From: an uncultured Clostridia bacterium
Lineage (GTDB): Bacteria; Bacillota; Clostridia; Oscillospirales; Acutalibacteraceae
Assembly (NCBI GenBank): GCA_944384855.1
Contig: CALWUY010000014.1
Location: 1-59,629, forward strand
Direction of reading: 5' to 3'
DNA length: 59,629 bases
The notes beneath the pieces were generated by a model that made no database searches, was not told where the DNA came from, and saw only the letters and a list, made by a program, of their open reading frames with translations. The first letter of the stretch is position 1; every line of letters starts with the position of its first letter. Shown piece after piece: positions 3,537-39,577 of the stretch. Both the position numbers and the translations under genes were made by a program.

Positions 3537-3566
3537 TATAAATTATAATTTATGAAACAGATGATT

Positions 3567-3597
3567 ACAGCCTGTCGGAAATGACAGGCTGTTTTAT
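3567..3597 (+). terminator. Rho-independent terminator after ankyrin gene
   Basis: A perfect 10-bp stem (ACAGCCTGTC / GACAGGCTGT) with a 6-base loop is followed by TTTT. It ends the AT-rich gene block. Confidence 0.85.
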
Positions 3598-15474: not shown

Positions 15475-17634
15475 TTATCCGTTAAGTTTTTTCTCGTTGC
15501 GCTTTTGACCGGATGCATAGACCTTTAATTTATAGCTGTTGCATGCTGCATCGCCTGATGTTTTTAACTTCAGGGTCATCACGGTATCGGATTTGCATTC
15601 GGGGACACTGAAATTCACAGTAGGTCCTAACTTGTTGGTTCGCGGCTCTACATCTCCGGTTTTCCATGATATCTGTTCGTACTCTTTGCCGTTTATTTCA
15701 ATAACGGCGGTTATTGTATCGCAAACACTGCCGGCAGAACTGTTTAAAAGCCAGAGCTGAGCTGAAAATACATCTCCGGGATTCCAGTCAAAACGCGGTA
15801 TTCTCGCGCTTGCCAAAACAGGTTTCAAAGAATCTCGCACAGCGTAATATCCGCTTTTTTTAATATTCGGATATGATATAAGACTGTTTCCTGCCGCGGT
15901 TATCCACGGTTCGTCAAAACACCAGTTTATCGCCATAGAGCAATAGGGCCATTGTTTTCTCGCTTCTTCAAAGATTGCTTTGTATCCCATCTCCTGAAGC
16001 AGAGCAGAGTTGTTAACCATTTCCTCCAAGGAACCGGGTTTACCGAAGTAATGTTCCAGCGTTGACGGAAATACCCAGCTGTCTTCTTCCCATGAGGCAA
16101 AGCCGTGATGCTCTATCCAGGCGGCAGTATCGGTTACAGGGAAAAGCTCGGACTCGGGTATGATTTTTTTAAGCTGTTCAACCGGAGCGATTGACGGCAC
16201 ACCGAATTCACTGTATGCAGTGTTTTTTGCTGAGTTCATAATCTGAAAAACGTCCTGCAGATCTTCGTGCGTGCTGCGGAAGAAATAACCGCCGTGCGCC
16301 ATTCCGAAGAGCGGAGAAGTATATAAGAAGGGTCTTTCAAAATCTTCTTCGTAACAAAGTTTATTGAGCAGTCTTAATGCGTGCGACTGTTCGGTCATAC
16401 CTGACCATTCGTTGAACAGCTCGTTTCCTCCGCACCAAAGCACTATTGAAGGATGCCTTCTCAGCTGCCGTATAACTGAGACAGCTTCACTTTTCAGCAC
16501 AGAAAGATATTTTTGAGTCCCTATGTAATTGTTGCAGGAAAGCATAAATTCCTGCCATACCATAATTCCCAGTTCATCGCATAAATTATAAAACGCCGGT
16601 TTATTGATACCTGAGCCTCCCCAGATACGCAGGATATTCATATTAGCTTCTTTAACGGCGGTAAGCAGTTCGCTGTAACGTTCCTCGGTTACCATTCCGG
16701 TAAAAAGTTCCGGGTTGACCCAGTTGGAACCCTGAGCAAAAATTCTTCTGCCGTTGAGTTCTATGGTGATAGGCGCGGGATACCTTGATTTCGGAAAATC
16801 TTTAGGTTCTGCCGTCGCTCCGGTGTTCATAACAAGCTTTACTGTCCGGAAACCTATCCTGCCGTTTACGCTGTGACCGGAAGTTTCCGCTGTATAGCTG
16901 TAAAGATATGGGTTTCCCTGTCCGTTGCACCACCAAAGATTGATATTATCAATAGTAAATTCGGGATCTGTTCCGTGATATACAACATTACCTTCGGCGT
17001 CTTTTACGGTATACGTAACGGTCTGAAGACAGTCGGTAACGAATTTAACGTCGGCAGATGTGCGTTCTTCATTCAGGGTATAGAACGGTTCACACGAATT
17101 GATATATGATGAATCACGTGTTTCTAAATATGTGTCTCTCCAGATGCCTGAAATCAGAAGTCTCGGGTTCCAGTCCCACCCATAGCAGAAAGGAGGCTTA
17201 CAGCTTTGGTCAGCCTGATCGCGGCAGTCACCGGCGCCTTCTCTTTTCGGATGCGGATGAATTATAACCGACAGCTCACAGCCTTTATATGCGGATTCGG
17301 TTATATCGATTTCAACCGGAGAAAACATTCCTTCATAGGAATAAATTATCCTGCCGTCAAGAGCAATATCAAAAATATAATCAATTCCTCCGGACACAAA
17401 CCAAAGGGATTCGCCGGCGTTTGCCGTATAGTCCAGTTTGGTTTTGTATATCCACCAATAATCCTCAATTTCCTTAAAACGTTTTACGTTATCAGAGTAC
17501 TGGAAATCTCCGTAACCGTGGCTGACAGCATAATCGTACTGTATGTTGCCGGGTACATTTGCCTTGAAGAAGTCAGATGCTGTTTTGGTTTCCGGATTAT
17601 ACTGCGCGGCGGTCCACTCTTGAATAAATTTCAT
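15475..17634 (-). CDS. GH2 beta-mannosidase-like glycosidase, cytoplasmic
   Basis: This gene encodes 719 residues with no signal peptide. Domain order is a GH2 sugar-binding jelly roll (WWIYKTKLDY, GGIDYIFDIALDG), an Ig-like domain, and a TIM barrel. The barrel has the acid/base Glu in LWCGGNE and the nucleophile Glu in AYSEFG. The WDWNPRLL and RIWGGSG segments resemble beta-mannosidases rather than beta-galactosidases. It should remove terminal beta-mannosyl (or related) units from imported oligosaccharides. The upstream minus-strand regulator gene ends 44 bp before it, so they form one operon. AAGGA lies before the ATG. Confidence 0.85.
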   Translation of the reverse strand: MKFIQEWTAAQYNPETKTASDFFKANVPGNIQYDYAVSHGYGDFQYSDNVKRFKEIEDYWWIYKTKLDYTANAGESLWFVSGGIDYIFDIALDGRIIYSYEGMFSPVEIDITESAYKGCELSVIIHPHPKREGAGDCRDQADQSCKPPFCYGWDWNPRLLISGIWRDTYLETRDSSYINSCEPFYTLNEERTSADVKFVTDCLQTVTYTVKDAEGNVVYHGTDPEFTIDNINLWWCNGQGNPYLYSYTAETSGHSVNGRIGFRTVKLVMNTGATAEPKDFPKSRYPAPITIELNGRRIFAQGSNWVNPELFTGMVTEERYSELLTAVKEANMNILRIWGGSGINKPAFYNLCDELGIMVWQEFMLSCNNYIGTQKYLSVLKSEAVSVIRQLRRHPSIVLWCGGNELFNEWSGMTEQSHALRLLNKLCYEEDFERPFLYTSPLFGMAHGGYFFRSTHEDLQDVFQIMNSAKNTAYSEFGVPSIAPVEQLKKIIPESELFPVTDTAAWIEHHGFASWEEDSWVFPSTLEHYFGKPGSLEEMVNNSALLQEMGYKAIFEEARKQWPYCSMAINWCFDEPWITAAGNSLISYPNIKKSGYYAVRDSLKPVLASARIPRFDWNPGDVFSAQLWLLNSSAGSVCDTITAVIEINGKEYEQISWKTGDVEPRTNKLGPTVNFSVPECKSDTVMTLKLKTSGDAACNSYKLKVYASGQKRNEKKLNG

Positions 17635-17678: not shown

Positions 17679-18770
17679 TTATTTTTCTGAAACTTGCTCA
17701 TAATAATGATTTTTGGTTATCTGATATACCGAATCTCTGATAATGAGTTTTACCGGAATAGCCTGTGTTACGAAAGGTTTGTTTGGATTGATTATCCTCT
17801 CGTATAAAAGCTGAGCGGCGTTGAATCCTATCTGATAAAATTGCTGCTCTACTGTAGAAAGAGCCGGTATTAAGTTTGCGGTTTCGCGTAAATTATCAAA
17901 TCCGAAAATTGAAATTTTTATATTTTTTTCATTCAGGTGTTTCAAAATAGGTATCGCGGCAAAATCCGCGAGCACGAACAAGGCAGTTATTTCGGGGTGT
18001 TGGGCTAATATGTCGTCAATTATATTGACATCAAACATTTCCGGATTTTCAAATACAAGCGAACTGTCAAATAAATTCTGCTGTTTCATTGCAAGGCAGT
18101 ATCCGTCAAAACGCTCTGCATTGCTTGTGGCAGATTTAAAAGTCTGGGTAGATATAAGCGCGATTTTTTTATGCCCCTGAGAAATTAAATAACTTGTCGC
18201 CTTATACGCTCCGTCAAAATTATTGCTCGCGACCGAATCACAGGGAATTTTAAGCGGCCGTTTATCCAAAAATACAAAATTTACCCCTTTCTGCATCATA
18301 GACCAGTAAAAAGATATATTTTTATCGGAAAACGGACTCATCAAAAGCATATAACGGTAACCTTTCTGATAAAAATCAAGTATAAGCTCGCGTTCCTTGA
18401 CGGCGCTGAAACCCGTCACCGAAAGCAATGACTGTATGTTATGCCGCGCGAACGAATCCTGAACCCCTGAATATATGTCAAGAAACCGTGAATTTCTTTG
18501 AGCATCCTGGGCTATAAACGGTACTGAAATCTGCTGGGTTTCTGAAGGCGCATTGTCTTTTACAAAAGCTCCTTTATTTGCAATTCGCACAATAGTACCT
18601 GACTCTTCAAGTATACCCAAAGCACGTCTTACAGTTACACGGCTTACACCTAAAGAAGAGGCAAGTGTGTTTTCTGCCGGTAATTTTTGGCCGGGACGCA
18701 GACGTTCATCAATAATACAATTATTTATATAATTGACTATTTTGTCCCGCTGTTTGTTTATATAAGCCAT
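17679..18770 (-). CDS. GntR-LacI hybrid transcriptional repressor (AraR type)
   Basis: This gene encodes 363 residues. Residues 1-75 are a GntR-type winged helix (RPGQKLPAENTLASSLGVSR, RALGILEESGTI). The remainder is a LacI-type periplasmic-binding-like sensor domain (SVPFIAQD, YRYMLLMSP, FVFLDKRP, ISTQTFKS, ALFVLADFAAI, GFDNLRE). This fusion is the AraR architecture, where a sugar releases the repressor from DNA. It is divergent from the module/GH5 genes and co-directional with the GH2 gene, so it probably controls both. The inducer is unknown. GGAGGAT lies before the ATG. Confidence 0.92.
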   Translation of the reverse strand: MAYINKQRDKIVNYINNCIIDERLRPGQKLPAENTLASSLGVSRVTVRRALGILEESGTIVRIANKGAFVKDNAPSETQQISVPFIAQDAQRNSRFLDIYSGVQDSFARHNIQSLLSVTGFSAVKERELILDFYQKGYRYMLLMSPFSDKNISFYWSMMQKGVNFVFLDKRPLKIPCDSVASNNFDGAYKATSYLISQGHKKIALISTQTFKSATSNAERFDGYCLAMKQQNLFDSSLVFENPEMFDVNIIDDILAQHPEITALFVLADFAAIPILKHLNEKNIKISIFGFDNLRETANLIPALSTVEQQFYQIGFNAAQLLYERIINPNKPFVTQAIPVKLIIRDSVYQITKNHYYEQVSEK

Positions 18771-19273
18771 TTATCCTCCCCGCTGTTCTGTTATTATTTG
18801 ATTCAATTATAATGTAAAATATTGTAAAAATCAAGCATTTTTTAACAAAAATAACACAATCGTTCAAAAAATAATACAAAAATGTAATACATAAATTAAA
18901 AAACAAATACCGATAAAACTTAATGAAAATTTTACAATTTGTAAATTTGGACTTGACAATTTGGTTATTTTTTGGTATATTTAGTGTAATCGAAGACGTA
19001 GAATCGTTAAAAAATAATACAATATGACGAAATTTTGTATGATTTGTTTTATTATATTACATTTAAATAATACGAAACTGTCGTGATATTTTTATTGCCG
19101 TTTAGTAATTTTTAGAATAAAAATTCCGTTGGAGAGAGTGGAATGGAGATTCTTTATTCTGAAACCATATGGCAGTGATAATATAACAATTAACAAGGAG
19201 GGGTGTATAAATCGGTTTATTCTTAAACGGTATTCAAACTTATTTTGACATTTTGCATAAGGGGCCGCGAGAT
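18771..19273. promoter_or_regulatory. Divergent control region with operator candidates
   Basis: This is a 503-bp AT-rich gap between the repressor gene and the first module/GH5 gene. It holds a perfect 15-bp palindrome, TTTACAATTTGTAAA (18931-18945), eight bases before the -35 box of the plus-strand promoter. There are also three copies of AATAATAC (18870, 19013, 19066). The long leader after the promoter (about 280 bases) shows no riboswitch that I recognise. Binding by the GntR-LacI protein is inference from position. Confidence 0.5.
18953..18981 (+). promoter_or_regulatory. Sigma-70 promoter of module/GH5 operon
   Basis: A consensus -35 TTGACA (18953-18958) and a TATATT -10 (18976-18981) are separated by 17 bases. 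It is among the best promoters in the window, and a palindrome lies directly upstream. Confidence 0.75.
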
Positions 19274-22200
19274 TTGAAACGAGCGATAAGTACATTGCTG
19301 GCGGTATTGATTGGTACGGTAATACCGGTATTGTCTGTAACCGCAGAAAATGCAGTACCTGTTTCTGCGGTAAATAACGAGACAAAGCAGCTGTCAGTCA
19401 GCACCAATATAACAGGGCCGAAATATTTTGTAGACTCAGCCGGAACTCCGGTAAATCTTTTCGGTATGGCGAGATGTCAGGCTCATTCGGAAGAGGAAGA
19501 CTGTCAGTTTGGCGGAAACGCCGGCACGCTGGCCGAACATTATTATAATTTAGGCATGAATTATATGAGGCTGGCGATAGATATTTCGGACATTGCAGGC
19601 GATACAATTACAGATTCACTTCTTCTTACGACCGACGAGCAGATTGATGAATATATTTATGAATATATAGATCCTGACGTAAAGGCGATAATCGGTGAGG
19701 GAATGTATGTCGGCCTTGATATGCACATGTACGCTCCCGTAGAAATATCGGAAGGGGTATACGCTACCGCGCAGGAGACGACGGTGTATGCCGAGGCGAA
19801 TTATCTGCCGGTACTGAAGCGGCTTGCGGCTGTTTATAAGGATGAGCCGATGATAGCCAACATAGAAATCTGGAATGAGCCCAATTACGGTGCAAATTCT
19901 ACGGCGCCGTTTGATTCTTCTTGGAATACGGCCTTGAGAGATTACTTTATAGACGCGGTGGAGGAGATAAGGCAGATCGATGGCGAACGCGTGCTTATGG
20001 TAAGCGACAGCAATGCCGGATGGGGAAGCAACATAGATAATTTCTGGAACGGATATTATGATGACTTGGGCGATAATGTGGTTTTCAGCGCGCATGTTTC
20101 AAAGGATCAATTCAGCGAACAGAGTGATTATATCAGTTATTCTGACTGGGTTAAGAATGTAGCAAATACAAGAAATATATGCATAGTATTTAATGAAGTC
20201 GAAGATGAGCCCGAAACCTCAACGGACGCGAGTATAGAAAATTTCTGTGAATTTTTGGAAAACAGCAAGAATACATATCATTTTTCGGGATGTTTATGGC
20301 GTCCGCGCACAGATTATGTCAACAGGACGCACATTTGGGGAAGCAACGGATGGGCCGCATCGTATACCGGAGTTAGTTTAAATCTGGGACCCGTTTTGAA
20401 TTGGTTTAAAGCCGACGGATACAACGAATCCGGCGGTGAGCTTTCTCAGACGGCTACCGTGCAGGGTAACGGCAACGCAGTCAGCGCTGCGGGCGGCATC
20501 GCGGCATATACAAAAGAGTATGCTGCGATACAGAACGCAAGATGCGATATCGCCGGAGGAGACATCATTTTTTCAAAAAATAATTATTACAGCTTGTCGG
20601 AATCTCAGCGTGTGCCAACCGACCTTACAGGATATGAATATGTCATTGTTAAACTAAGGTTTGCGGATGAGGGAACTGCCGGCCATGCACTTTCGGCTGT
20701 AGGGAGCGGCGATCCTTTTATCAGAATTGACGGTGCGGAGGCGGTATCGTTTGCGGATTATAAATCGGCTCTGACAGCCGCCGCGGACAATGCGGAAAAA
20801 CTCAAGTGGGTAACGCTGGTACTGCCGCTTTCTCAGGATTTTAACGGTTGTTACAATCTAATCTCGATTGATATGGGATACAGCGGACAGACTGCAACGG
20901 AGACTCATTTTTATACTATTGATTTTGCAACGGAGGAATACGCGGTCAATTATGACGGAATTTGCGGCAGCGATAATCTGATGGAACTTGACGGAGGACC
21001 TGATTATGAATTTAATGTTCATAATTCATGGTATCCGCAGCTTAATCTGAGTGCGTGGGAAGATTTTACAGTATATAAGGAGTATACTGCAATAAGCTTT
21101 GATATTGAATTTCCGGATTATACATATGTAAAAAACAGTCTGATTCCGGGAAGCAGATCTTCTTTGGGAGGCGGAACCTTCAGTTATAATCCGTCGTATG
21201 ATCTGGGAATATATTTTTCGGGAACAGACGTAAGCGGCATAGGTATAACACAGACTGAACTGTTCGGACAGCTGAGCGCTTATGAAACTGCCCTGTCGGC
21301 CGGTCAGAAAGTGAGACTTACCTTACCGATAACGGGAAATTTCATTGACGGAGGCAAAATTTCGAGTGTAAACATAATGATTTCGCACGGACAGGATGCG
21401 TCGGTGCTTGACGGAAAGAGTATTTCGGTATCAGGAATAGAATTCATAAGAGATGAGATTATACTTGAAAATTCACCCGACTATATATTTACCTCAAACG
21501 CATGGCAGCCGCAGCTGACGGTTGAAACTAAAAATGCCGCTGTAATAACGGAGGCGTCCAATAAGCTATGTTTTGACATAAAGCTTCCTGATATAGAAGT
21601 TCTTCGTCCTAATATGATATGGGGAAGCAATTCTTCTTTAGGCGGAGGAGGAATATCATACGGTCCTGACGATTTTGCTGTTTACTTCAGCGGTGAAAAT
21701 GTTTCGTCAATAGGTATTACACAGGGAGATTTTTTCGCTGCGCTGGATGAAAATACCGAGAGTCTCGCGGCGGGAGAAACGGTTACGCTTACGCTGGACA
21801 TAAAAGGTAACATAAAAGATTACGGAAGAGTAACTGCGGTCAGCATAATGGTAACCCACGGTGAATCTGCGGCGGTATTCGGAGGCAAGCCGGTATCGAT
21901 ATCGAATATAAAGGTTATTTCTTCCAGACTGGTATTGGACGGCGGTCCGGACTATGTCTTTAACGGAGATAACTGGTATCCGCAGTTAAGTGTGCGAAGT
22001 TCTGAGGGATTGAATGTTTCGGGAAATTATAACAGGATAAAGCTGAAATTAAGAATTCCTGATATACTGATACTCAGGCCCAACATGTCAGCGGGAAGCA
22101 GAATGTCAGTCGGAGGAGGAGAGTTCACCTACAATGCCGATACTGATTTGGGGATTTATTTTTCCGGTACCGGTGTCAGCGGCGCGGGGGTGTCACAGAC

Positions 22201-22582
22201 GGATTTATTTAATGCGTTTGACAGTAATTCCCAGGCACTTGCGGCAGGTGAAACAGTAGAAATTATACTTCCGGTAAGCGGCGTGTTTGCCGAAGGCGGA
22301 AAAATCACCGGAATTAATATAATGCTTGCGCATGACAGCGCCGCGTCCGTGTTTGAAGGCAAATCGGTTTCGATTACGGAATTTGAATTTTATGCAGAAG
22401 CCGGCGAGGATCTTAACTCTGACGGCAGAATAAATTCTCTGGATGCTATTTTACTTAAAAATTATCTGTTTGGCTTTGAAGCCGACATAAAAAACTTAAA
22501 TAAAGGCGATATAAACGGCGACGGAAACACAAATGTTTTAGATTACATATTATTACGCAAAGCAATTTTAGATATTTATTAG
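19274..22582 (+). CDS. Secreted GH5-like enzyme with three novel modules and a dockerin
   Basis: I prefer TTG 19274 as start because AAGGGG (19259-19264) is well spaced and the signal peptide KRAISTLLAVLIG follows; this gives 1,102 residues. Domain order is a signal peptide, then a clan A barrel resembling GH5 (NLFGMARCQ, acid/base Glu in EIWNEPNYG, probable nucleophile in FNEVEDE, SGCLWRPR). Next come a beta-rich linker domain, three copies of an unrecognised PDY..F...W.PQL module (from 20984, 21458 and 21929), and a type I dockerin (from 22409) with two calcium loops, DLNSDGRIN and DINGDGNTN. The nucleophile motif is N-E-V-E instead of G-E-V-E in the two paralogues at 41081 and 42106. Confidence 0.85.
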   Translation: MKRAISTLLAVLIGTVIPVLSVTAENAVPVSAVNNETKQLSVSTNITGPKYFVDSAGTPVNLFGMARCQAHSEEEDCQFGGNAGTLAEHYYNLGMNYMRLAIDISDIAGDTITDSLLLTTDEQIDEYIYEYIDPDVKAIIGEGMYVGLDMHMYAPVEISEGVYATAQETTVYAEANYLPVLKRLAAVYKDEPMIANIEIWNEPNYGANSTAPFDSSWNTALRDYFIDAVEEIRQIDGERVLMVSDSNAGWGSNIDNFWNGYYDDLGDNVVFSAHVSKDQFSEQSDYISYSDWVKNVANTRNICIVFNEVEDEPETSTDASIENFCEFLENSKNTYHFSGCLWRPRTDYVNRTHIWGSNGWAASYTGVSLNLGPVLNWFKADGYNESGGELSQTATVQGNGNAVSAAGGIAAYTKEYAAIQNARCDIAGGDIIFSKNNYYSLSESQRVPTDLTGYEYVIVKLRFADEGTAGHALSAVGSGDPFIRIDGAEAVSFADYKSALTAAADNAEKLKWVTLVLPLSQDFNGCYNLISIDMGYSGQTATETHFYTIDFATEEYAVNYDGICGSDNLMELDGGPDYEFNVHNSWYPQLNLSAWEDFTVYKEYTAISFDIEFPDYTYVKNSLIPGSRSSLGGGTFSYNPSYDLGIYFSGTDVSGIGITQTELFGQLSAYETALSAGQKVRLTLPITGNFIDGGKISSVNIMISHGQDASVLDGKSISVSGIEFIRDEIILENSPDYIFTSNAWQPQLTVETKNAAVITEASNKLCFDIKLPDIEVLRPNMIWGSNSSLGGGGISYGPDDFAVYFSGENVSSIGITQGDFFAALDENTESLAAGETVTLTLDIKGNIKDYGRVTAVSIMVTHGESAAVFGGKPVSISNIKVISSRLVLDGGPDYVFNGDNWYPQLSVRSSEGLNVSGNYNRIKLKLRIPDILILRPNMSAGSRMSVGGGEFTYNADTDLGIYFSGTGVSGAGVSQTDLFNAFDSNSQALAAGETVEIILPVSGVFAEGGKITGINIMLAHDSAASVFEGKSVSITEFEFYAEAGEDLNSDGRINSLDAILLKNYLFGFEADIKNLNKGDINGDGNTNVLDYILLRKAILDIY
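20984..22405 (+). repeat. Novel module, three copies in GH5-like protein
   Basis: Copies begin at 20984, 21458 and 21929, each about 155 residues. Conserved points are PDY.F...W.PQL at the start, GS.SS.GGG..Y, a D..YFSG..VS..G..Q.D.F pattern, AG..V.LTL...G, and IM..H....V..GK..S at the end. It is predicted to be a beta-sandwich, possibly carbohydrate-binding (inference). Confidence 0.8.
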
Positions 22583-22643
22583 TTTTTCTTATTAACTTCA
22601 GGCATCAAATTAATTAAATAATTTTAAACGGAGGTTAGCAATC

Positions 22644-24863
22644 ATGAAAACACTGAAATCGAAATTCAGCAGCATGCGTAAAATTACGGCTGTATTTCTG
22701 GCGGTTGCACTTATGGCTGCCGTCTGCTGTATAGCGCCGGTAAGCGCGTCTGCGCTGGAAAACTTACCGCTTGTTTTACAGGGCGGTCCTGATTATGTCT
22801 TTAACGGCAATCAGTGGGATCCTCAGCTTACGATAGGCACGGCTGATCTTACGGTAGGTCAGCAAGTAGAATCAATTCAATTTGACCTTAAGTTTGAGGA
22901 TTATACAAATGTTAAAGGATGTTTTTCTGCTGGAAGCAGAATGACTTACGGCGGCGGTGAATTCGCTTATGACCTTAACCGCGATTTAGGTATTTATTTT
23001 AACGGTGTTAACACGGCGGGCATAGGGGTTACTCAAAACGAACTGTTCAATAACGCGTTTGCAGCCAATGAAACCGCCCTTGCGGCAGGCGAAACTGTAA
23101 GGGTAACTCTTCCTATAATAGGAATTTTCCCTGACGGCGCGGTAATAAGCGGTATAAATATTATGGTTGCGCATGACGCCGCAGCTTCTGCGTTGGACGG
23201 TGTGGCAATTTCAATTTCAAATGTTGAGTTTACTCAAAAGGACAAAGATCCCGAAGCGGAATCAGGCGGAATATTTATAGGTGACGTTAATCATAAGCTT
23301 AGCGGAAATAACTGGGGACCTCAGCTTACAATAAGCACCAACGGTGAAATAGAGGTAGGTCCTGAGATTACGGCAATGAAGTTTGATTTCAAACTTCCCG
23401 ATTATGCTGAAATAAAGCCTAACCTTGCAGACGGAAGTATATCAACGGTAGGCGGAGGCAGCTGGAGCTACGGCCCAAATGATTTGGGTATGTTCTTCGG
23501 AGGAACTAATTGTGCCGGTGTAGGTATTACGCAGTACAATCTGCGTAAAGCGTTTGAAGAAAATGAAGAGGCGCTTGTGGCAGGAGAAATCGTAACTCTT
23601 ACGCTTCCTATAAGCGGAAGATTTCCCGAGGGCAGCAGTGTGAACGGCATGAATGTAATGCTTACATTTAAAGAACTTGCAAATGTACTGCAAGACAAAG
23701 ATATTTACATTGCCAACGCGGAGTTTTTGTATGACACTATTTTATTGAACGACGGCCCGGATTACGCTTTTAGTCCTGAACCGTGGGAACCTCAGCTTAT
23801 CATAAACACTAAGGATTTTATGGTTTCCTCAGAGTATACTGCTATGGCGTTTGATCTTAAGTTTGAGGATATTGCCAGTGTGAGAAGTTATATGAAACCG
23901 GGAAGCAAGGGTACGCTGGATGGAAGCGAAATGGCTTATAACGGTGACATAGCTTTAGGTATTTATTTTGAGGGTACAAATGTTGCCCGTAAAGGAGTAA
24001 CTCAAACTGATTTGTTCAGCGCATTTGATATAAATGCAGCCGCTCTTTCGGCAGGAGAGACCGTAAGGGTTGTGGTGCCTGTATCCGGCGGATTTACCGA
24101 TGATGGTATAATCAATCAAATTAAAATGATGGTAACGTATGACCCTAATCATACATATTTCGACAATGTTCCCATTTCGATTTCAAATGTTAGTTTTTTA
24201 AGAAACCGAATTGTATTAAAGAGCGGGGCTGAACAGAAATTTACCGCTAATCCATGGGATCCTCAGCTATCTGTAGCCACAAACAACTATAATGTAGCGT
24301 CTAACATCACCGAAATTAAGTTTGATATAAGCATTGAAGACTTTGCTGCACTCAGAGCAAATATGTCTGCAGGAAGCAAGGGCTCAATCGGTGATCAGGG
24401 AATGACATATAACGGAGAAGTTGATTTGGGCATTTATTTCGGCGGCACTGATGTCGCGGGCGTAGGTGTTACCCAAAGCGATCTGTTCGCCGCGTTTGAC
24501 GCTAACACCGAGGCGCTTTCAGCGGGCGAGACGGTCACATTGACATTGCCTGTCAAGGGACTGTTCAAAAATACGGGTGTTATAAATTCTCTCAATATCA
24601 TGGTAGCGCACGATACCGGAGCGGCGGTATTTGCCGACAAAGCCGTTACGCTGGACAACATAGAGTTTATTTATAAGCCTATAGCAGCGGCTGATGTAAA
24701 CTGTGATAATGAGGTTAATGCGCAGGATATCGTAATAGTCAAAAAAGTACTGTTCGGAACTGCAGTTGACATAGTAAATGAAAATCAGGGTGATATAAAC
24801 GGCGACGGATATATTGACATACTGGATTATATTGCAGTGAAAACAGCAGCACTGAATGTATAA
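22644..24863 (+). CDS. Secreted protein with four novel modules and a dockerin
   Basis: This gene encodes 739 residues. A signal peptide (about residues 1-38, ending SASA) is followed by four copies of the PDY..F...W.PQL module (from 22770, 23271, 23739 and 24210) and a type I dockerin (24693-24860; DVNCDNEVN and DINGDGYID loops). No catalytic domain is present, so it is probably a binding or bridging component. The dockerin resembles the one in the preceding gene, suggesting the same cohesin partner. GGAGG lies before the ATG. The gene begins 61 bp after the GH5-like gene with no terminator between, so they are probably co-transcribed. Confidence 0.85.
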   Translation: MKTLKSKFSSMRKITAVFLAVALMAAVCCIAPVSASALENLPLVLQGGPDYVFNGNQWDPQLTIGTADLTVGQQVESIQFDLKFEDYTNVKGCFSAGSRMTYGGGEFAYDLNRDLGIYFNGVNTAGIGVTQNELFNNAFAANETALAAGETVRVTLPIIGIFPDGAVISGINIMVAHDAAASALDGVAISISNVEFTQKDKDPEAESGGIFIGDVNHKLSGNNWGPQLTISTNGEIEVGPEITAMKFDFKLPDYAEIKPNLADGSISTVGGGSWSYGPNDLGMFFGGTNCAGVGITQYNLRKAFEENEEALVAGEIVTLTLPISGRFPEGSSVNGMNVMLTFKELANVLQDKDIYIANAEFLYDTILLNDGPDYAFSPEPWEPQLIINTKDFMVSSEYTAMAFDLKFEDIASVRSYMKPGSKGTLDGSEMAYNGDIALGIYFEGTNVARKGVTQTDLFSAFDINAAALSAGETVRVVVPVSGGFTDDGIINQIKMMVTYDPNHTYFDNVPISISNVSFLRNRIVLKSGAEQKFTANPWDPQLSVATNNYNVASNITEIKFDISIEDFAALRANMSAGSKGSIGDQGMTYNGEVDLGIYFGGTDVAGVGVTQSDLFAAFDANTEALSAGETVTLTLPVKGLFKNTGVINSLNIMVAHDTGAAVFADKAVTLDNIEFIYKPIAAADVNCDNEVNAQDIVIVKKVLFGTAVDIVNENQGDINGDGYIDILDYIAVKTAALNV
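22770..24680 (+). repeat. Novel module, four copies in dockerin protein
   Basis: Copies begin at 22770, 23271, 23739 and 24210. The second and fourth copies have diverged openings (DVNHKLSGNNWGPQL and GAEQKFTANPWDPQL), but the GVTQ/GITQ centre and the hydrophobic ending are kept. Confidence 0.8.
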
Positions 24864-25228
24864 TATATTTGTTTAAAAGCAGGTATATTTGATATCTCGT
24901 TTTTTAGATTTGAATAAAGTACAGGAGAGATTTTCCGCGTTTCACGCGGAAAATCTCCTGCATCAGCTATTCGGATATATTATTTTAAGTTGGTAGTTTA
25001 TTACAGTTTAAAATCAGAATTAATATTTGTTGATTTTAAAGTTTATTTTATATATAATTAGTTTTTGAAATCTGTATCTGCAATTTCTGTAAATCATCAA
25101 ATATTATTACTAAAGTAGGCGATTTAATATTTTAATATATGCAGCGGTGGTTTCAACAGAGTATTTTCGATGCATATATCAATTTATTAAATCAATAAAT
25201 TAATAAATTTTAAACGGAGGTTTGAAAA
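24864..25228 (+). promoter_or_regulatory. 365-bp gap: hairpin and probable promoter
   Basis: A long hairpin with one bulged region (24922-24960, ACGCGG-rich stem) follows the dockerin gene. It lacks a T-run, so it is a weak terminator or a processing site. TTGATT (25030-25035) and TATAAT (25053-25058) with 17-base spacing make a good promoter for the membrane-anchored module gene. The rest is AT-rich without a recognisable gene. Confidence 0.6.
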
Positions 25229-27988
25229 ATGAAAAAAGCTCTAAAATTCAAAAGACTGAGGGCAGAGCTAAGCGTTATATTAGCGGCTGTTATTGTGCTT
25301 TCGTCTGCCTGTGTCGCTGCGTTTTCGGCGTCAGCCGTGACTGAAAATGCGGAGCTTATACTTAAAGGCGGCCCCGATTATACTTTTTCGGGAAATGCAT
25401 GGACTCCTCAGCTTACAGTTGAAACAGAGGATTTTACGGTACCGGCGGACGCTGAGCTGATAAAATTTGATATTAAAATTCCGGATTATGAAACGCTTAA
25501 ACCTTTGATGAAAGCGGGAAGCCTTTCTACTGTAGGAGGCGATTCGTGGGGATATGGAGCAGATACAGACCTTGGAATATATTTTGAAGGTGTATCAGTT
25601 AAAGGAATAGGGGTCGTTCAGAGGGATTTGTTTACGGCGTTTGAAGCTAATGCCGAAGCACTTTCTTCGGGAGAAACCGTTTCATTGACGCTTCCGATAA
25701 GCGGAACTTTTTCAGAAGAAAGCGTTATTTCCGCAGTCAATGTAATGGTGACGCATGGCGATGATGCAGCTCAGTTTGATCAAAAAGCGATATCACTTTC
25801 AAATTTTGTATTTAATCCGGATGTGCAGGAAGAGGCGCCGCAAAATGTGCTGACGCTTAAAGACGGTCCCGACTATAAGTTTACTGGAAATAACTGGGAT
25901 CCCCAGCTTGTTGTAGATACCGAGGAATTTACGGTTTCAGCAGAGTATAAGGAAATACGTATTGATTTCAGTATCCGGGATATTGAGACTCTCAGACCTA
26001 AAATGAGCGCCGGCAGCCGTTCTTCAGTAGGCGGGGGAGAATTTTCTTATAATTCGGATACGGATTTGGGGTTATACTTCGGAGGAGAAAATGTTACAGG
26101 TGTAGGTGTAAGTCAGACAGCTCTTTTTAATGCGTTTGACCAAAACAAGCAAGCGCTTGCAGCCGGTGAAACAGTTTCTGTGGTATTCCCCATAAGCGGT
26201 GACTTTACCGTAGGCGGCAAGATTACGGATTTGAGAATAATGCTTGCTCATGATGCCGATGCCTCGGTATTTGAGGGTAAGAACATATCAATTTCGTATG
26301 TAGAGTTTGATCCTCCTAAGCCTGAGGAACCGGCCGCGGATTATCCGCTTGAATTGAAAGACGGACCGGATTATACATTTACAGGAAATGCATGGGATCC
26401 GCAGCTGCAAATAAGCGCTGAATCCGAGGTTAAGATTCGTCCTGAGGTTGATCAGATTACATTTAAAATCAAATTGGCTGACATAAACAGCATAAAGGGA
26501 TATTTTTCCGCCGGAAGCCGTTCTTCTGTAGACGGAGGAAGTTTCACGTATGACAGCAACAAAGATTTAGGTATTTACTTTATGGGCACTAATATCAACG
26601 GTGTTGGGGTCAGTCAGAACAAGCTTTTCGAAGCATTTAATAAAAATGCAGAAGCGCTTGCCGCAGGTGAGACGGTAACATTTTCACTTCCTATAATAGG
26701 CACCTTTGAAGAAGAAAGCAAAGTAAGCGGCATATTTATGATGTTAGCGCATGACTCTCCGGCTGCTAATTTAGACGGCGTGCCTGTTTCTATTTCAGAG
26801 GTTGTTTTAAGGGTATCTTCCGAAACTCAGGGTCCTATAGGCGAAGATCAGGTAGAAATTCTGGACGGTCCGAAATATGTACTGACCGGCAACAATTGGG
26901 GACCGCAGCTTGTTATAGAAACGAGTGATTTTACACTTAAAAATACCTATAAATTCATGCAGCTTGAAATGTCAATTTCAGACATCAAAACTTTGATGAA
27001 CAACTTTTCGGTAGGGTCACCTTCAGTTTTAGGCGGCGGAAGCTGGGGCTACGGCGGCGATGACCTCGGAATTTACTTCACGGGCGATAATGTTAACGGT
27101 ATAGGAATCAGACAGACCGATCTTTCAGCCGTTTTGACAGAAAAACGCGGTTTGCTGGAGCGCGGAGAAACTGTAGTTCTTGAATTTCCATTCTCAGGAG
27201 AAATTCCGGAAGGTGCAGTTATAAAAGGTTTGAATTTCTGTATGGCTCACGACAGTGCAGCAGGAAATCTTGCAGGTATCGAATTTAATATAAAGAAGGT
27301 CACTTTCTCAGAGAAATCTGTAATTCCTGAAGAAATTGAAGTGGATTTCAATGCGGAGGATATCAAATCTCTAAATGAAAATGAGACGGTCGTAGATTTC
27401 GGACGCAAAATAATTTATGTTATTGAAAATTCTACCGTGGGCAATCTTCTTGATAATGTTGAGCTAAACGCGGAAAAAGGTTTTCAGGAAATGGTATATT
27501 ATGAAGGCTCAAGAATGTCAAATAAAGGAAAGCTTATAGCAGATTATGACTTCCAGTATATAGTAGTGCCGCTTGAAGGCAATCAGATTGAATTTGATGT
27601 TATCCCCTGTGCCAAAAAAGCCGGCGTCATAGATATCACAAGTCCGATAGCTAATAATAAAAATCCGACCGAAGACATGGACGATATAATTTTTGACGAT
27701 ACTGATTTAGACGATCTTAATACAGATGTGGATTATAATCCTATAACAGATGACGGTTATTATAATGAAGAAACGATACCAGGCAACGAACAGCAGACAG
27801 CGATTGTTCCTTCAACTTCCGGCGGAACAAATAAGGTAGTTAAGCAAACTGTCACAGAAAATATTGCCTTATACAGTACTCCGCAGCTGATTATACTTAT
27901 TGCTGCATGTTTCCTTGCGGGAGCCGCGATTATGTTTATAATCGATTTGTTCCGTTTCAAGAAAATAGTTTTATTTAAGAAAAAGTGA
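25229..27988 (+). CDS. Membrane-anchored surface protein with four novel modules
   Basis: This gene encodes 919 residues. A signal peptide (ending FSASA) is followed by four copies of the same module (from 25355, 25850, 26348 and 26855), then a distinct domain at about residues 700-800. An acidic, threonine-rich spacer comes next, then a C-terminal transmembrane helix (about 890-912) with a lysine-rich cytoplasmic end. There is no dockerin and no catalytic motif. It would hold the module region outside the membrane, probably to catch polysaccharide near the transporter encoded next. GGAGG lies before the ATG. The next gene starts 66 bp downstream. Confidence 0.85.
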   Translation: MKKALKFKRLRAELSVILAAVIVLSSACVAAFSASAVTENAELILKGGPDYTFSGNAWTPQLTVETEDFTVPADAELIKFDIKIPDYETLKPLMKAGSLSTVGGDSWGYGADTDLGIYFEGVSVKGIGVVQRDLFTAFEANAEALSSGETVSLTLPISGTFSEESVISAVNVMVTHGDDAAQFDQKAISLSNFVFNPDVQEEAPQNVLTLKDGPDYKFTGNNWDPQLVVDTEEFTVSAEYKEIRIDFSIRDIETLRPKMSAGSRSSVGGGEFSYNSDTDLGLYFGGENVTGVGVSQTALFNAFDQNKQALAAGETVSVVFPISGDFTVGGKITDLRIMLAHDADASVFEGKNISISYVEFDPPKPEEPAADYPLELKDGPDYTFTGNAWDPQLQISAESEVKIRPEVDQITFKIKLADINSIKGYFSAGSRSSVDGGSFTYDSNKDLGIYFMGTNINGVGVSQNKLFEAFNKNAEALAAGETVTFSLPIIGTFEEESKVSGIFMMLAHDSPAANLDGVPVSISEVVLRVSSETQGPIGEDQVEILDGPKYVLTGNNWGPQLVIETSDFTLKNTYKFMQLEMSISDIKTLMNNFSVGSPSVLGGGSWGYGGDDLGIYFTGDNVNGIGIRQTDLSAVLTEKRGLLERGETVVLEFPFSGEIPEGAVIKGLNFCMAHDSAAGNLAGIEFNIKKVTFSEKSVIPEEIEVDFNAEDIKSLNENETVVDFGRKIIYVIENSTVGNLLDNVELNAEKGFQEMVYYEGSRMSNKGKLIADYDFQYIVVPLEGNQIEFDVIPCAKKAGVIDITSPIANNKNPTEDMDDIIFDDTDLDDLNTDVDYNPITDDGYYNEETIPGNEQQTAIVPSTSGGTNKVVKQTVTENIALYSTPQLIILIAACFLAGAAIMFIIDLFRFKKIVLFKKK
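25355..27315 (+). repeat. Novel module, four copies in anchored protein
   Basis: Copies begin at 25355, 25850, 26348 and 26855. The first three are close to consensus (GGPDYTF, DGPDYKF, DGPDYTF). The fourth opens with DGPKYVL and keeps NNWGPQL. Linkers of 5-15 residues, often rich in Pro and Glu, separate the copies. Confidence 0.8.
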
Positions 27989-28054: not shown

Positions 28055-30910
28055 ATGAAAAAATTAATATCCGTCTTATTATCGGCGGTGCTTGTACTTA
28101 CGGTGCTTCCGCCTACCTTCGCGGGCAGCAGTTTGACTGTTGCAGCTGAAGACACTGCGGGTTCCGTGACTTCCGTCACGGAACCCGGTGGATACAGTGA
28201 ATATATTGGTAATTTTAAAGACAGCAGTTATCCGGATGCAGAGATAACCGGAACTTCAGACAGTCAAATTACGGAGCGTGAAGGATTTTCCGGTTCATTA
28301 TTAAATGACGACTCAAATCCGCAGTATAAATTTGATGTAGAAAACGAAGGGCTTTATGCTGTAAGTCTTACATACGTAGCTCTGTCAGGAAATAATTTAA
28401 GTGCGGAATTTTCTCTGACGCTTGACGGGAAAAGCGTATATAATGAACTGAATTCAATTGAGCTGTATAAGCTTTACCGTGATGTAGGTGAGCCAAAGAC
28501 AGATGCGTTCGGCAATGAGACACATGCGGATCAGGAGGAAGTAGTTGACTCGCAAACTGTATTTCTGAAAGACTCATCCGGATATGTAAGCGGAGAGCTT
28601 TTTCTGTATTTTACCAAAGGACAGCACAGTTTGGAATTTACCTGTGTAAGAGGCGAAGTTTTAATTCAAAAGGTCGTTTTGACCCAGCCCGATTCCGTGC
28701 CTGATATTGAGTTAAAAATCGATTCCGGATTGGATACGGCAAAGGAACAGAAAATAGTAATCGAAGCGGAGAAACCGTATTTAAAATCATCCTCAATGCT
28801 GTATGCTTCCTGTGACAAATCTTCATATTATGTCAGCCCGTATCCTCAGGGTAAGGAAAAGATAAATATTTTGGGAGGAGAAAATTTCAGCAGTATAGGT
28901 CAATGGGTTGAATATAAATTCACCGTTAAGCAGGCAGGGTATTATTCTTTTAACATAAAATTCAAACAAAACAGTTCTATAGGTATGACATCATACCGGG
29001 ATATATATATTGACGGAAGTATTCCGAATACTGATTTTAAAAATGTGACATTTCCCTACAGCACAAAATGGAACAGCCGTTCTGTGACTGACAGTGACGG
29101 TGAACTTGTTCCGGTTTGGCTTGACGAAGGCGAGCACACTATACGTTTGGATGTCACTTTAGGAGAATGCAGCGAAATTCTCGCTATTATTCAGGAGAGT
29201 GTCACAGCTTTTAACGAGGCGTATCTTGAAAGCATAATGTATCTTACCACTTCTCCCGATGTAAACCGCGACTATGATGTGGAAAAGAATCTCCCCGGTG
29301 TACTTGAGGTTTTTGAAGAACAGATAAAAGTACTCGAGGATTTATCAGATAAAATAGATAAGGTTTCCGGCGGAAAAAATGATTCCATAGCATTGGTAGA
29401 CCGTATGATTTATCAGCTTAACAATATTCTTAAAAAACCGGAAACTTATCCTAAAAGGCTTGAGCAGGTAAAGTCTAATGTGACGGCGCTCGCGGCGCTT
29501 ATAACCACATTCAGCAATCAGCCGCTTGCCATTGATTATATAACCGTTTTCACTGACGATTGTACTTTAGATAAAGCTGAGGCCAACTTTTTTCAGAATT
29601 CCTATAACGAGATAATTAATTTTCTGTATACTTTTTCGGAAGGGTATAATTCCACCTCTGCCGGAGACGACGATGAAGGCGGAATAGTAGTATGGGTTCC
29701 TACCGGCCGTGATCAGTATAAGGTGATAGGCAATCTTATAGATAATTCATTTACTCCTGACACAGGTATTCCGGTACAGCTGAAGTTAGTGCCGACAACC
29801 AGTCTGCTTTCTGCGGTAATAGCGGGAAAGGGACCTGACGTTGTTCTTCAGATATTGAATTCTGAGCCTATGAACTATGCGACACGCGGTGCAGTCTATG
29901 ATTTGAGTCAATTTGAAGACTGCGATGATGTGGTTTCCCGTTTTTCAGATGCGGCTTGTGTCCCATTAAGTCTTGGCAACTCGCTTTATGCTCTGCCGGA
30001 AACAGAAACATTTTATATGATGTTTTACCGGACTGATATTCTTGCTGATTTAGGATTAAGCGTACCTGAAACCTGGGAAGATTTTCTTGTTGTAACAACC
30101 GAACTTCAAAAAAATAATCTGGCGACAGGTCTCCCGAGTACGCAGGATAATAATTTGGTTACAGGTACGCCAAATACACAGCTGGCATTTGCAATGTTCC
30201 TTTCACAGAGCGGAGGAAGCTTTTATAAAGAGGATACTTACGAATGCGATATTAATTCTACTATAGGGTTAAAAGCTTTTACCAAATATACAGATATGTT
30301 TTTGAATTATGGTTTACCGCTTACATACGACGCGCTTACTCGTTTCAGAATGGGAGAAATGCCGCTTATAATAAATGATTATACATTTTTCAATCAGCTT
30401 CAGGTGGGAGCTCCAGAAATAGCAAATCTTTGGGATTTCACAATAGTTCCCGGAACTGTCCGTGAAGACGGAACGGTTGACCATACTGTTCCGATTACCG
30501 GCAATGCGTGCATGATGCTGAAATCCACAACCGATCCGGATGCATCGTGGGAGTTTTTGAAATGGTGGACGAGTGCGGAAACTCAAATTGCTTACGGCAG
30601 AGATATGGAAATGATTTTGGGAACATCCGGAAGGGTGGCAACGGCCAATATTGAAGCGTCAAAATCACTTGCATGGTCGAAGAAAAATTCAGATGCAATA
30701 GATGAAGCACGCAAGTCGATATATGGTATAGAGAATGTGCCGGGAAGCTATTTTATGTCGCGTCATATTCAAAACGCATTCCGCATGGTTGTAATTTCAG
30801 GGGATGATGCCAAAGAGTCACTGAGGTATTATTCAAAAATTATAAATAATGAAATTCATACAAAATGCGATGAACTTGGCATTTCGATTGAAAGAGAAGA
30901 AATAAAGTAG
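28055..30910 (+). CDS. Large solute-binding protein with N-terminal CBM-like domains
   Basis: This gene encodes 951 residues. A signal peptide is followed by two beta-rich domains, at about residues 50-220 and 235-380. The second opens with KIVIEAEKPYL and resembles CBM6/35-type sandwiches. A helical region precedes a type 1 extracellular solute-binding domain from about residue 545 (GIVVWVPTGRDQYKVIGNL, GKGPDVVLQI, MMFYRTDILADLGLSVPETW). It heads a CUT1 sugar ABC transporter whose permeases follow 8 bp later. There is no lipobox cysteine and no other obvious anchor, which is unusual for a Gram-positive binding protein. AAGGAG-like GGAGG lies before the ATG. Confidence 0.85.
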   Translation: MKKLISVLLSAVLVLTVLPPTFAGSSLTVAAEDTAGSVTSVTEPGGYSEYIGNFKDSSYPDAEITGTSDSQITEREGFSGSLLNDDSNPQYKFDVENEGLYAVSLTYVALSGNNLSAEFSLTLDGKSVYNELNSIELYKLYRDVGEPKTDAFGNETHADQEEVVDSQTVFLKDSSGYVSGELFLYFTKGQHSLEFTCVRGEVLIQKVVLTQPDSVPDIELKIDSGLDTAKEQKIVIEAEKPYLKSSSMLYASCDKSSYYVSPYPQGKEKINILGGENFSSIGQWVEYKFTVKQAGYYSFNIKFKQNSSIGMTSYRDIYIDGSIPNTDFKNVTFPYSTKWNSRSVTDSDGELVPVWLDEGEHTIRLDVTLGECSEILAIIQESVTAFNEAYLESIMYLTTSPDVNRDYDVEKNLPGVLEVFEEQIKVLEDLSDKIDKVSGGKNDSIALVDRMIYQLNNILKKPETYPKRLEQVKSNVTALAALITTFSNQPLAIDYITVFTDDCTLDKAEANFFQNSYNEIINFLYTFSEGYNSTSAGDDDEGGIVVWVPTGRDQYKVIGNLIDNSFTPDTGIPVQLKLVPTTSLLSAVIAGKGPDVVLQILNSEPMNYATRGAVYDLSQFEDCDDVVSRFSDAACVPLSLGNSLYALPETETFYMMFYRTDILADLGLSVPETWEDFLVVTTELQKNNLATGLPSTQDNNLVTGTPNTQLAFAMFLSQSGGSFYKEDTYECDINSTIGLKAFTKYTDMFLNYGLPLTYDALTRFRMGEMPLIINDYTFFNQLQVGAPEIANLWDFTIVPGTVREDGTVDHTVPITGNACMMLKSTTDPDASWEFLKWWTSAETQIAYGRDMEMILGTSGRVATANIEASKSLAWSKKNSDAIDEARKSIYGIENVPGSYFMSRHIQNAFRMVVISGDDAKESLRYYSKIINNEIHTKCDELGISIEREEIK

Positions 30911-30918
30911 GAGGGGAA

Positions 30919-31842
30919 ATGTTCTTGAAAGCACTTAGCAAAGATTTATTTACAAATAAATTAATACAAATAAAGAAAAGCTGGCGTTTTTACCTCTGCT
31001 TACTTCCTTTTATGGCAGCATTTTTTCTGTTTACCATACTTCCTGTAATTCGTTCGGTTATTTACAGTTTTTGTTATTATAATGTTTTGCAGCCGGCCCA
31101 GTTTATAGGACTTGACAATTATAAAAATTTGCTTTTAAACGATGATGTATTTGTTAAAGCTGTTATAAATACGGTTGTTTTTGCTGTATTTACGGGGCCT
31201 GGCGGGTATTTGCTTTCACTTTTGCTCGCATGGATGATAAATGACTTTGGCCGAACTGTAAGAACTATTTTAGTTGTAATTTTCTATGCGCCTTCTATTT
31301 CAGGACAGCTGTATGTTATATGGCAGCTCATATTTTCCGGAGACAGTCAAGGCTATGCTAATGTAATTCTCACTCAGCTCGGTATCATAAACGAGCCAAT
31401 ACAATGGCTTACAGATCCGACTTATATGATGACGATTTGTATAATAGTTTCGCTTTGGATGAGTCTGGGCGCCGGATTCCTGTCATTTGTTGCAGGTTTT
31501 CAGGGGGTTGATAAAGGACTTTACGAAGCGGCCGCCATTGACGGTATAACCAACCGGTATCAGGAACTTTGGTATATAACGCTTCCGGCTATCAGACCTC
31601 AGATGATGTTCGGAGCGGTTATGTCGATAACTGCGGCGTTCGGTTCGGCAACAATCCTTCAGACGCTGTGCGGTTTTCCGTCTACGGATTATGCGGCGCA
31701 CACAATAGTTACGCATTTACAGGATTACGGTACTATCAGATATGATATGGGATACGCCTGCGCTATATCTACCATACTGTTCTTAGTCATGGTATTGCTG
31801 AACAAATATATTCAGCGTATGCTTAGGGGGGTAGGGCAGTGA
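30919..31842 (+). CDS. CUT1 sugar ABC permease (MalF-like), first pair
   Basis: This gene encodes 307 residues with six predicted membrane helices. The cytoplasmic EAA loop (YEAAAIDGITNRYQELWYITLPAI), which contacts the ATPase, is intact. AGGAGGGG lies before ATG 30919. It overlaps the next permease gene by 4 bp and follows the large binding protein, so the three form one importer. No ATP-binding subunit is encoded nearby, so a shared MsmK-type ATPase elsewhere is expected (family knowledge). Confidence 0.93.
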   Translation: MFLKALSKDLFTNKLIQIKKSWRFYLCLLPFMAAFFLFTILPVIRSVIYSFCYYNVLQPAQFIGLDNYKNLLLNDDVFVKAVINTVVFAVFTGPGGYLLSLLLAWMINDFGRTVRTILVVIFYAPSISGQLYVIWQLIFSGDSQGYANVILTQLGIINEPIQWLTDPTYMMTICIIVSLWMSLGAGFLSFVAGFQGVDKGLYEAAAIDGITNRYQELWYITLPAIRPQMMFGAVMSITAAFGSATILQTLCGFPSTDYAAHTIVTHLQDYGTIRYDMGYACAISTILFLVMVLLNKYIQRMLRGVGQ

Positions 31843-32723
31843 AAAAAGAAAAAAAACAGCCTAAGCTTGCTAAGCGCCATAAACATTTAAACCGTTCTGG
31901 CACAGGTAACTTTATCAGCTTTCTGTTTTTGCTGCTGTTAGGTCTTGCAATGCTTTTCCCTTTTGTATATGCTATAAATAATGCATTCAAACCGTTAAAT
32001 GAAATTTTCATTTATCCGCCTAAACTTTTTGTTCAGCATCCTACTACTGATAACTTTACCCAGTTGTTTGTGCTCATGCAGGAATCGACGGTTTCCTTTT
32101 CAAGATACATATTCAATACTTTGGCTATTACCGTAATAGGAACATTCGGTCATGTGATTTTTGCGTCTCTTGCAGGTTTCGTGCTTTCGAAGTATGAATT
32201 TCCCGGAAGGAAAATGCTTTTCACGTTAATTACCACATCTCTTATGTTTATTTCCCAGATTACGGGTATTGTTAACTACATAACAATAAGCTCGCTCGGA
32301 ATACTCGACACAGCGCTGGCTGTCATAATTCCGGCATTAGGTTCTTCAATGGGCGTTTTTCTTATGAAACAGTTTGTGGATTCAATGGTACCGGGTCCGG
32401 TGCTGGAATCGGCTGCGGTAGACGGAGCCGGTTTGCTGCGTACATTCTGGACAATTATAATGCCCATGGTAAAACCGGCATGGATCACACTTATAATTTT
32501 TGATATACAGTCACTGTGGAATACAGACGGTGGAACTTACCTGATAAGCGAACAGAAAAAGACTCTTTCTTATGCGCTGTCGCAGATTACCGCAAGCGGT
32601 ATTTCAAGAATGGGCGTTGCTTCTGCCGCATCTGTAATAATAATGATTGTGCCGATAGTTACCTTTATAATTACACAGAGCAATGTTGTTGAGACAATGG
32701 CCGCGTCAGGCATTAAAGAATGA
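31839..32723 (+). CDS. CUT1 sugar ABC permease (MalG-like), first pair
   Basis: This gene encodes 294 residues and starts with GTG 31839, overlapping the previous stop (GTGA) with GGGGG upstream. There are about six membrane helices, and the EAA loop is LESAAVDGAGLLRTFWTIIMP. It pairs with the preceding permease. The basic N-terminus (KKEKKQPKLAKRHK) is cytoplasmic. Confidence 0.92.
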   Translation: MKKEKKQPKLAKRHKHLNRSGTGNFISFLFLLLLGLAMLFPFVYAINNAFKPLNEIFIYPPKLFVQHPTTDNFTQLFVLMQESTVSFSRYIFNTLAITVIGTFGHVIFASLAGFVLSKYEFPGRKMLFTLITTSLMFISQITGIVNYITISSLGILDTALAVIIPALGSSMGVFLMKQFVDSMVPGPVLESAAVDGAGLLRTFWTIIMPMVKPAWITLIIFDIQSLWNTDGGTYLISEQKKTLSYALSQITASGISRMGVASAASVIIMIVPIVTFIITQSNVVETMAASGIKE

Positions 32724-32739
32724 GGCAGGAGGAACAAAT

Positions 32740-34971: not shown

Positions 34972-34983
34972 GTGGGAGGAAAG

Positions 34984-38596: not shown

Positions 38597-38605
38597 GGAA
38601 TACGG

Positions 38606-39517: not shown

Positions 39518-39577
39518 AAAAAATAATCGCATAGAGAGTTTTTAATATAAATTTAAAATAAAATTGGAGGTAATTTT

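Follow-up and report, generated by a model that had tools for sequence, protein, structure and literature searches.

Proteins in which repeated modules are combined with a dockerin or a membrane anchor are familiar from cellulosome scaffoldins, for example the glycoside hydrolase (GH)-cohesin-dockerin protein ScaA of Acetivibrio cellulolyticus, and structures of two ruminococcal families of carbohydrate-binding module (CBM), CBM79 and CBM80, are deposited in the Protein Data Bank (PDB). At the level of gene clusters, PMC5320581 defines the Gram-positive polysaccharide utilisation locus (gpPUL) by enzyme, transporter and regulator occurring together. At the level of single modules, PDB entry 7EHG is tied to the xanthan lyase MXL, and the xanthan-binding modules of such enzymes form family CBM84, according to PMC10881899. 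The window considered here, a stretch of 59,629 nucleotides from an uncultured Clostridia bacterium of the Acutalibacteraceae (assembly GCA_944384855.1, contig CALWUY010000014.1), contains eleven copies of a ~157-residue module in three adjacent genes on the + strand (20975-27313), whose products are termed proteins A, B and C. The module probably represents an undescribed CBM-like beta-sandwich family of one gpPUL, which would present it as multivalent glycan-binding arrays on three surface proteins. Coordinates refer to the window and to the + strand unless the - strand is named.

The repeat is real and well bounded. The eleven copies, with pairwise identities of 32-62% (mean 43%), were each held out and scored with a profile of the other ten, and every held-out copy reached 152-227 bits, against best scores of 4.4-10.3 bits for 500 residue shuffles per copy and 1.0, 0.4 and -0.1 bits for three stretches of these proteins outside the modules. 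Protein A contains copies A1 (20975-21445; 188.5 bits when held out), A2 (21449-21919; 181.9 bits) and A3 (21920-22390; 214.4 bits); protein B contains B1 (22761-23231; 211.3 bits), B2 (23259-23729; 170.2 bits), B3 (23730-24200; 191.0 bits) and B4 (24201-24671; 203.8 bits); and protein C contains C1 (25346-25816; 219.3 bits), C2 (25841-26311; 226.6 bits), C3 (26339-26809; 206.4 bits) and the membrane-proximal C4 (26843-27313; 152.1 bits). The count of three, four and four copies given by the first-pass annotation is confirmed and its coordinates are correct to within a few residues, the repeat length being set here at 157 residues where ~155 had been given. Of the motifs it had listed as shared, W.PQL occurs in 11/11 window copies, and the N-terminal PDY in 8/11 by reading of the alignment; a regular expression returned 9/11, since B2 contains another, internal PDY that it also counts.

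The module is absent from the libraries searched. None of the eleven copies passed a Pfam cut-off (best chance E 0.028), none of fourteen copies, the eleven of the window and three of a related genome, G069, matched NCBIfam (best chance E 0.11), and the 11-row profile, compared with every PDB sequence (E<=10), returned four unrelated matches, none of them a CBM. The best match in PHROGs (E 0.06) was taken as chance, and a search of the literature, by words rather than by sequence, showed among its top-ranked matches no paper obviously describing the module. The earlier description of the module as unrecognised is therefore borne out within Pfam, NCBIfam and PDB sequences, CAZy and dbCAN models having lain outside the comparison. 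CBM79, which had been left as a possibility, finds no backing in the profile search, which showed no sequence similarity of the kind that would place the copies in CBM79 or CBM80. Of the checks that the first-pass annotation had envisaged, a Pfam scan of the copies and a profile search of PDB sequences give no family match, and a structure search with the predicted fold gives weak CBM matches.

These weak matches come from an AlphaFold2 model of copy C2, built from a 14-sequence input and confident (pLDDT 96.7, pTM 0.90), which predicts a beta-sandwich-like chain of strands, the fold class of most CBMs, with four short helices. In a Foldseek search of the PDB, the top four rows were chains of the xanthan-binding module MiXBM (PDB 7EHG; best E 0.014, probability 0.95, TM 0.42/0.47), a weak resemblance to CBM84 with no sequence match beside it; a sialidase and then a gingipain adhesin domain followed. 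Structures of CBM4 (CBM4-2), CBM6, CBM36, CBM86, CBM35 and CBM61 occur among the 50 Foldseek matches listed, all weak, and a viral structure library gave nothing at E<=0.001. Judged by its model, the module would be CBM-like in kind, yet near no solved fold within Foldseek's reach. With residues numbered along the first row of the copy alignment, W19, Y70 and F80 are invariant in 14/14 copies, all of which also have an aromatic residue at position 79; W19 and Y70 are located outside the strands of the model.

The three proteins carry the module in different company; their signal peptides and the anchor of C were read from the sequence. Protein A (19253-22582) consists of a signal peptide, a GH5 domain (residues 60-335; PF00150, E 2.3e-20), a region of ~160 residues, copies A1-A3 and a C-terminal type I dockerin (PF00404) that reached 45 bits (E 1.3e-11) in the protein scan and 49.8 bits in the genome search, where it maps to 22406-22570, the cut-off being 22.9 in both. 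Copies A1-A3 are thus discrete modules following a carbohydrate-active catalytic domain, as is expected of CBMs. Proteins B (22644-24863) and C (25229-27988) each have a signal peptide followed by four modules. B ends in a dockerin (E 9.3e-8, 32.6 bits against 22.9); in C, the modules are followed by another C-terminal region, a linker and, at the C terminus, a transmembrane anchor whose tail is basic. A Pfam scan found no catalytic domain in B or C. The GH5 domain, dockerins and membrane anchor to which the first-pass annotation had linked the module are all present, spread over the proteins as GH5 and dockerin in A, dockerin in B and anchor in C. The region of protein A between GH5 and A1 (approximately residues 410-573; 20480-20974) has no Pfam match and is possibly another binding domain. 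Its kinship to the module was considered and is not supported (hhalign probability 18%), although the E-value of 0.0013 for this single comparison would be compatible with a distant tie.

As far as seen, the module is confined to one import locus in two genomes. No copy was found in the genome of origin outside the module locus (E<=1), and among 70 genomes of the same genus, that genome included, strong matches occur in two, the genome itself with 11 copies and G069 with 3, matches in two further genomes at E 0.002 and 0.007 being judged noise. In broader samples, only the genome of origin was found among 300 genomes of the family and among 391 of the class (both at E<=0.001), and among 345 genomes of the order (E<=0.01) it was joined by three at E 0.002-0.009; the genus, family, order and class samples overlap, and G069 is evidently absent from the last three. 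When 84,980 species genomes were scanned with a degenerate pattern, a procedure that mainly picks up close relatives, one locus emerged, L020, which is the G069 contig. Viral contigs and plasmids contained no module relative. The weak genome matches L022, L023, L026, L027 and L028 (E 0.001-0.01) were all treated as noise; the open frame behind L023 resembles an ATP-binding cassette (ABC) ATPase and those behind L027 and L028 a small zinc-ribbon membrane protein, while for L022 and L026 the matching frame was not recovered.

In a tree of the copies, C4 and the final G069 copy form a pair (support 100/99), a grouping firm enough that the membrane-proximal copy probably arose before the two species separated. 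The first two G069 copies pair with moderate support (91/86), the remaining branches show no firm grouping, and the labels A, B, C and G069 change eight times over the tree against a shuffled-label mean of 8.1, i.e., they are mixed about as by chance. The array probably spread among the proteins, and the tree supports no particular order of duplication.

The locus around the module genes is that of an importer. Protein C is encoded directly upstream of a 951-residue solute-binding protein (SBP) of an ABC importer (28055-30910), a member of a large paralogous family with an N-terminal extension of ~560 residues, and this is followed by two ABC permease genes (30919-31842 and 31839-32723), identified by sequence reading and found in the same order in L020. 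Further on are a second ABC importer of two permeases and an SBP (37655-41062), again in the same order in the relative, and two further GH5 genes of the same subfamily as the GH5 of protein A, one without an evident signal peptide and probably cytosolic (41081-42109), the other with a signal peptide and, by reading, a C-terminal membrane anchor (42106-44010). Adjoining the importer, between these two transport systems (32683-37614), are genes for an NHL-repeat/Yip1-domain membrane protein (32683-34971) and a DUF5696 protein (34972-37614; PF18952, E 5.7e-134), with similar genes at the same place in the relative. Upstream of protein A, on the - strand, lie a divergent regulator of the GntR/LacI type (17679-18770), a similar gene to which heads the relative's locus, and a GH2 without an evident signal peptide (15475-17634).

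The G069 locus runs in the order of divergent regulator, a C orthologue that has three modules, the large SBP, a pair of permeases, the NHL-Yip1-like protein, an 880-residue protein matched to the DUF5696 protein by position, a second pair of permeases, the second SBP, the GH5 lacking a signal peptide and the anchored GH5, which is, by reading of open reading frames (ORFs), the order of the window minus A and B; the locus is thus conserved from C onward in a second species, the large SBPs being 64% identical. At the A/B position of L020, from 3734 to before 4305, signal-peptide and dockerin readings lie in different frames, which may reflect decay of a dockerin gene or a fault in the assembly. 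Searched with a profile of the three GH5s, the subfamily is found in 2/70 genus genomes, the same two that carry the module (E<=1e-20), and in the genome of origin only among the 300 family genomes (E<=1e-60). A fourth GH5 of this subfamily, without modules or evident signal peptide, is encoded in the genome of origin at a distance from the locus (L100:12513-13514, contig C1).

Between the regulator and protein A, the sequence AAAATAATACAA occurs twice (18868-19022), these being its only two occurrences in the window (expected 0.05), and in L020 it occurs three times (3450-3577), all between the regulator and the C orthologue (expected 0.02). Because the sequence was chosen for being shared, these chance figures are optimistic, and AAAATAATACAA is put forward, post hoc, as a candidate operator of the GntR/LacI regulator.

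The genome contains 21 dockerin matches (E<=0.001) and 3 cohesin matches (PF00963, E<=0.01). One of the latter is a protein near the end of the window (57928-59406; 26.4 bits, cut-off 24.1) with a signal peptide and membrane anchor by reading; it is a candidate docking partner of A and B, should their dockerins bind cohesins of the same cell. Its gene adjoins that of a dockerin protein (56109-57911; 40.3 bits, cut-off 22.9) in which SH3_3 scores just below its cut-off (26.5 bits against 27). The dockerin and cohesin matches, together with this gene pair, suggest a small surface cellulosome. As to the substrate, the PDB sequences nearest to the GH2 are beta-mannosidases (E 1.2e-47), and no GH2 adjoins the regulator in the relative, where the contig ends soon after. 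The GH5s of the locus are distant from solved ones, with a cellulase as best match among PDB sequences (E 3.5e-8), and a GH5 model of only pLDDT 69.6 retrieved endo-glucanases of GH5 first in Foldseek, mannanases and endoglycoceramidases following close behind; given this moderate model and mixed ranking, no substrate is assigned from the GH5 structure. The glycan is perhaps of a beta-1,4-linked glucan or mannan type, to which these enzymes faintly point.

The position of protein C recurs in related loci. The family of large SBPs (~950 residues) is represented in 56/70 genus genomes, with 9 matches in the genome of origin (E<=1e-40). Forty paralogous SBP loci were compared, a non-random set of mostly best matches that includes some near-copies (e.g. 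L060 and L083), and in 15/40 a protein of at least 450 residues with signal-peptide-like and C-terminal membrane segments, here called a slot protein, lies within the four nearest upstream ORFs, the module protein of G069 being one of the 15. A Pfam scan covered 13 slot proteins, namely 12 of the 15 and that of L068, which lies further upstream, L049, L082 and L083 being left out. By whole-protein cut-off, 4/13 have a CBM or F5/8-type domain (CBM30 in L068, F5/8 in L070, CBM_4_9 in L078 and L080) and 2/13 have catalytic carbohydrate domains (an esterase in L061, GH53 in L072). The occurrence of CBM-type domains in several slot proteins gives moderate support to the idea that display of glycan-binding modules is common among proteins encoded where C is. 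The module itself did not recur in this set: when its profile was run against ORFs of at least 150 residues from the 40 loci, overlapping shorter ones removed, only the known orthologue fell below E 0.4. A self-BLAST for internal repeats in slot proteins was discarded, its positive controls A, B and C having returned none, and genome searches with PF21582 and PF08547 gave nothing usable, neither family being matched in control genomes.

The reading that we consider probable is therefore of a single module placed by one gpPUL, in tandem arrays of three or four, on a secreted GH5-dockerin enzyme, a non-catalytic dockerin protein and a membrane protein. Most likely, the arrays would bind one polysaccharide, or the oligosaccharides derived from it, multivalently. 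On protein A, the modules would hold the enzyme on its substrate; on protein B, they would supply extra binding capacity to dockerin/cohesin complexes; and on protein C, they would keep chains at the membrane, beside the importer encoded next to it. Released oligosaccharides might then be handed over to the importers and finished by the cytosolic GH5. Glycan binding, as the first-pass annotation had proposed, is made plausible by the beta-sandwich model with weak CBM matches in its top rows, by the conserved content of the locus and by the CBM-type domains of some slot proteins. The further proposal that the module founds a new CBM family having a fold variant of its own, and that docked enzyme, docked binder and membrane protein form a three-tier relay, in which modules of a single specificity, peculiar to this locus, hand one polysaccharide chain on from the extracellular complex to the transporter, is made more tentatively and falls somewhat short of an even chance.

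Several observations weigh against a glycan-binding family. Foldseek found no match in the PDB at E<=0.001, the TM-scores of the 50 listed matches are all <0.5, and those listed include many beta-sandwiches other than CBMs (the sialidase, the gingipain adhesin domain, Eph receptors, viral capsids). Only two genomes are known to carry the module, leaving its function to be read from one type of locus, and in G069 it is found on the anchored protein alone, deployment on three proteins being seen in one genome only. The co-occurrence of module and GH5 subfamily across the 70 genomes reflects one linked locus and not independent events, so that linkage is established and repeated association is not. 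In 7/13 slot proteins, no CBM-like or catalytic carbohydrate domain clears the cut-off, namely in L067, where CBM30 falls just under it (26.4 of 27), and in L054, L056, L059, L060, L062 and L079; in L070, no single stretch of the F5/8 match passes the cut-off alone. Kinship of the module with the slot proteins of L067 and L068 was looked for and not found (hhalign probability <1%).

Tandem beta-sandwich repeats with little linker, and an anchored protein ending in a membrane helix, would equally be found in a structural spacer or stalk, whose modules would raise enzyme, dockerin or anchor from the cell without binding anything; repeats of this sort do occur in certain other slot proteins with an anchor, L060 having cadherin-like domains beside M26 peptidase N-terminal domains and L062 Flg_new repeats. 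However, W19, Q22, Y70 and Q92 are invariant in copies only 32-62% identical, which is judged unusual for a mere spacer, and the module is also attached to a GH5 enzyme and confined to one locus, where reuse elsewhere would be expected of a generic spacer. The restriction to the locus and the invariant polar and aromatic residues make this explanation unlikely. It is decidedly more improbable that the repeats are divergent cohesins, with B as an adaptor scaffoldin, C as an anchoring scaffoldin and the modules as receptors for dockerins, even though the layouts of repeat plus dockerin, repeat plus anchor and GH plus repeat plus dockerin mimic scaffoldins and the genome has 21 dockerin matches. 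PF00963 finds three sites in the genome, none of them among the 11 modules, and Pfam as a whole matches none of the copies. When the module profile was compared with that of these three cohesins, the probability was 0.4%, and cohesin-dockerin structures appear only at Foldseek ranks 33 and 46 (TM 0.21-0.26). A cohesin identity of the modules was rejected on this evidence.

According to PMC13357471, CBM families in CAZy were numbered to at least CBM112 by 2026, and the module could belong to a CAZy family that has no representation in Pfam, NCBIfam or the PDB. The family, order and class samples contained no homologue above noise level; the pattern scan of 84,980 species genomes, attuned mainly to close relatives, returned the G069 contig only, and this explanation is regarded as improbable, if less so than the cohesin one. 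Least probable of all is an adhesion module for a protein on a host or neighbouring surface, instead of a food glycan: the Lys-gingipain adhesin domain and the KpFlo2/Cea1A adhesins do appear in the Foldseek list, all weakly, whereas the module forms part of a GH5 protein, and the import locus that its genes head is conserved together with it. An undescribed CBM-like family remains the favoured reading.

If the modules bind glycan, they constitute a new family of binding modules, and this is a clear case of one locus providing three separate surface systems, i.e., an enzyme, a dockerin complex and the membrane, with a binder of its own. For the genus, the suggested rule would be that binding modules peculiar to each locus are found on the anchored protein encoded ahead of its large SBP-type importer. 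The residues concerned, for which the searched libraries hold no family name, amount to ~470 in protein A and ~630 in each of B and C.

Set beside known systems, the module locus resembles a gpPUL in combining enzyme, ABC transporter and regulator, here the GH5 genes, the two ABC importers, whose permeases were identified by reading, and the GntR/LacI regulator; it differs in adding a locus-specific module array on three proteins, as well as dockerins. Proteins A, B and C share with scaffoldins the overall layout of repeats joined to a dockerin or an anchor, but their repeats are not cohesins. MiXBM, the top structural match, is likewise a beta-sandwich module joined to a polysaccharide-degrading enzyme, though it is only 10-13% identical to the module and has no sequence-profile match, and no xanthan-type enzymes are recognised in the module locus. 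The CBM30/CIA30-type modules of slot proteins (L068, and L067 below cut-off) occupy a position comparable to that of the modules of protein C, on an anchored protein encoded ahead of a similar importer, whereas their profiles bear no detectable similarity to that of the module.

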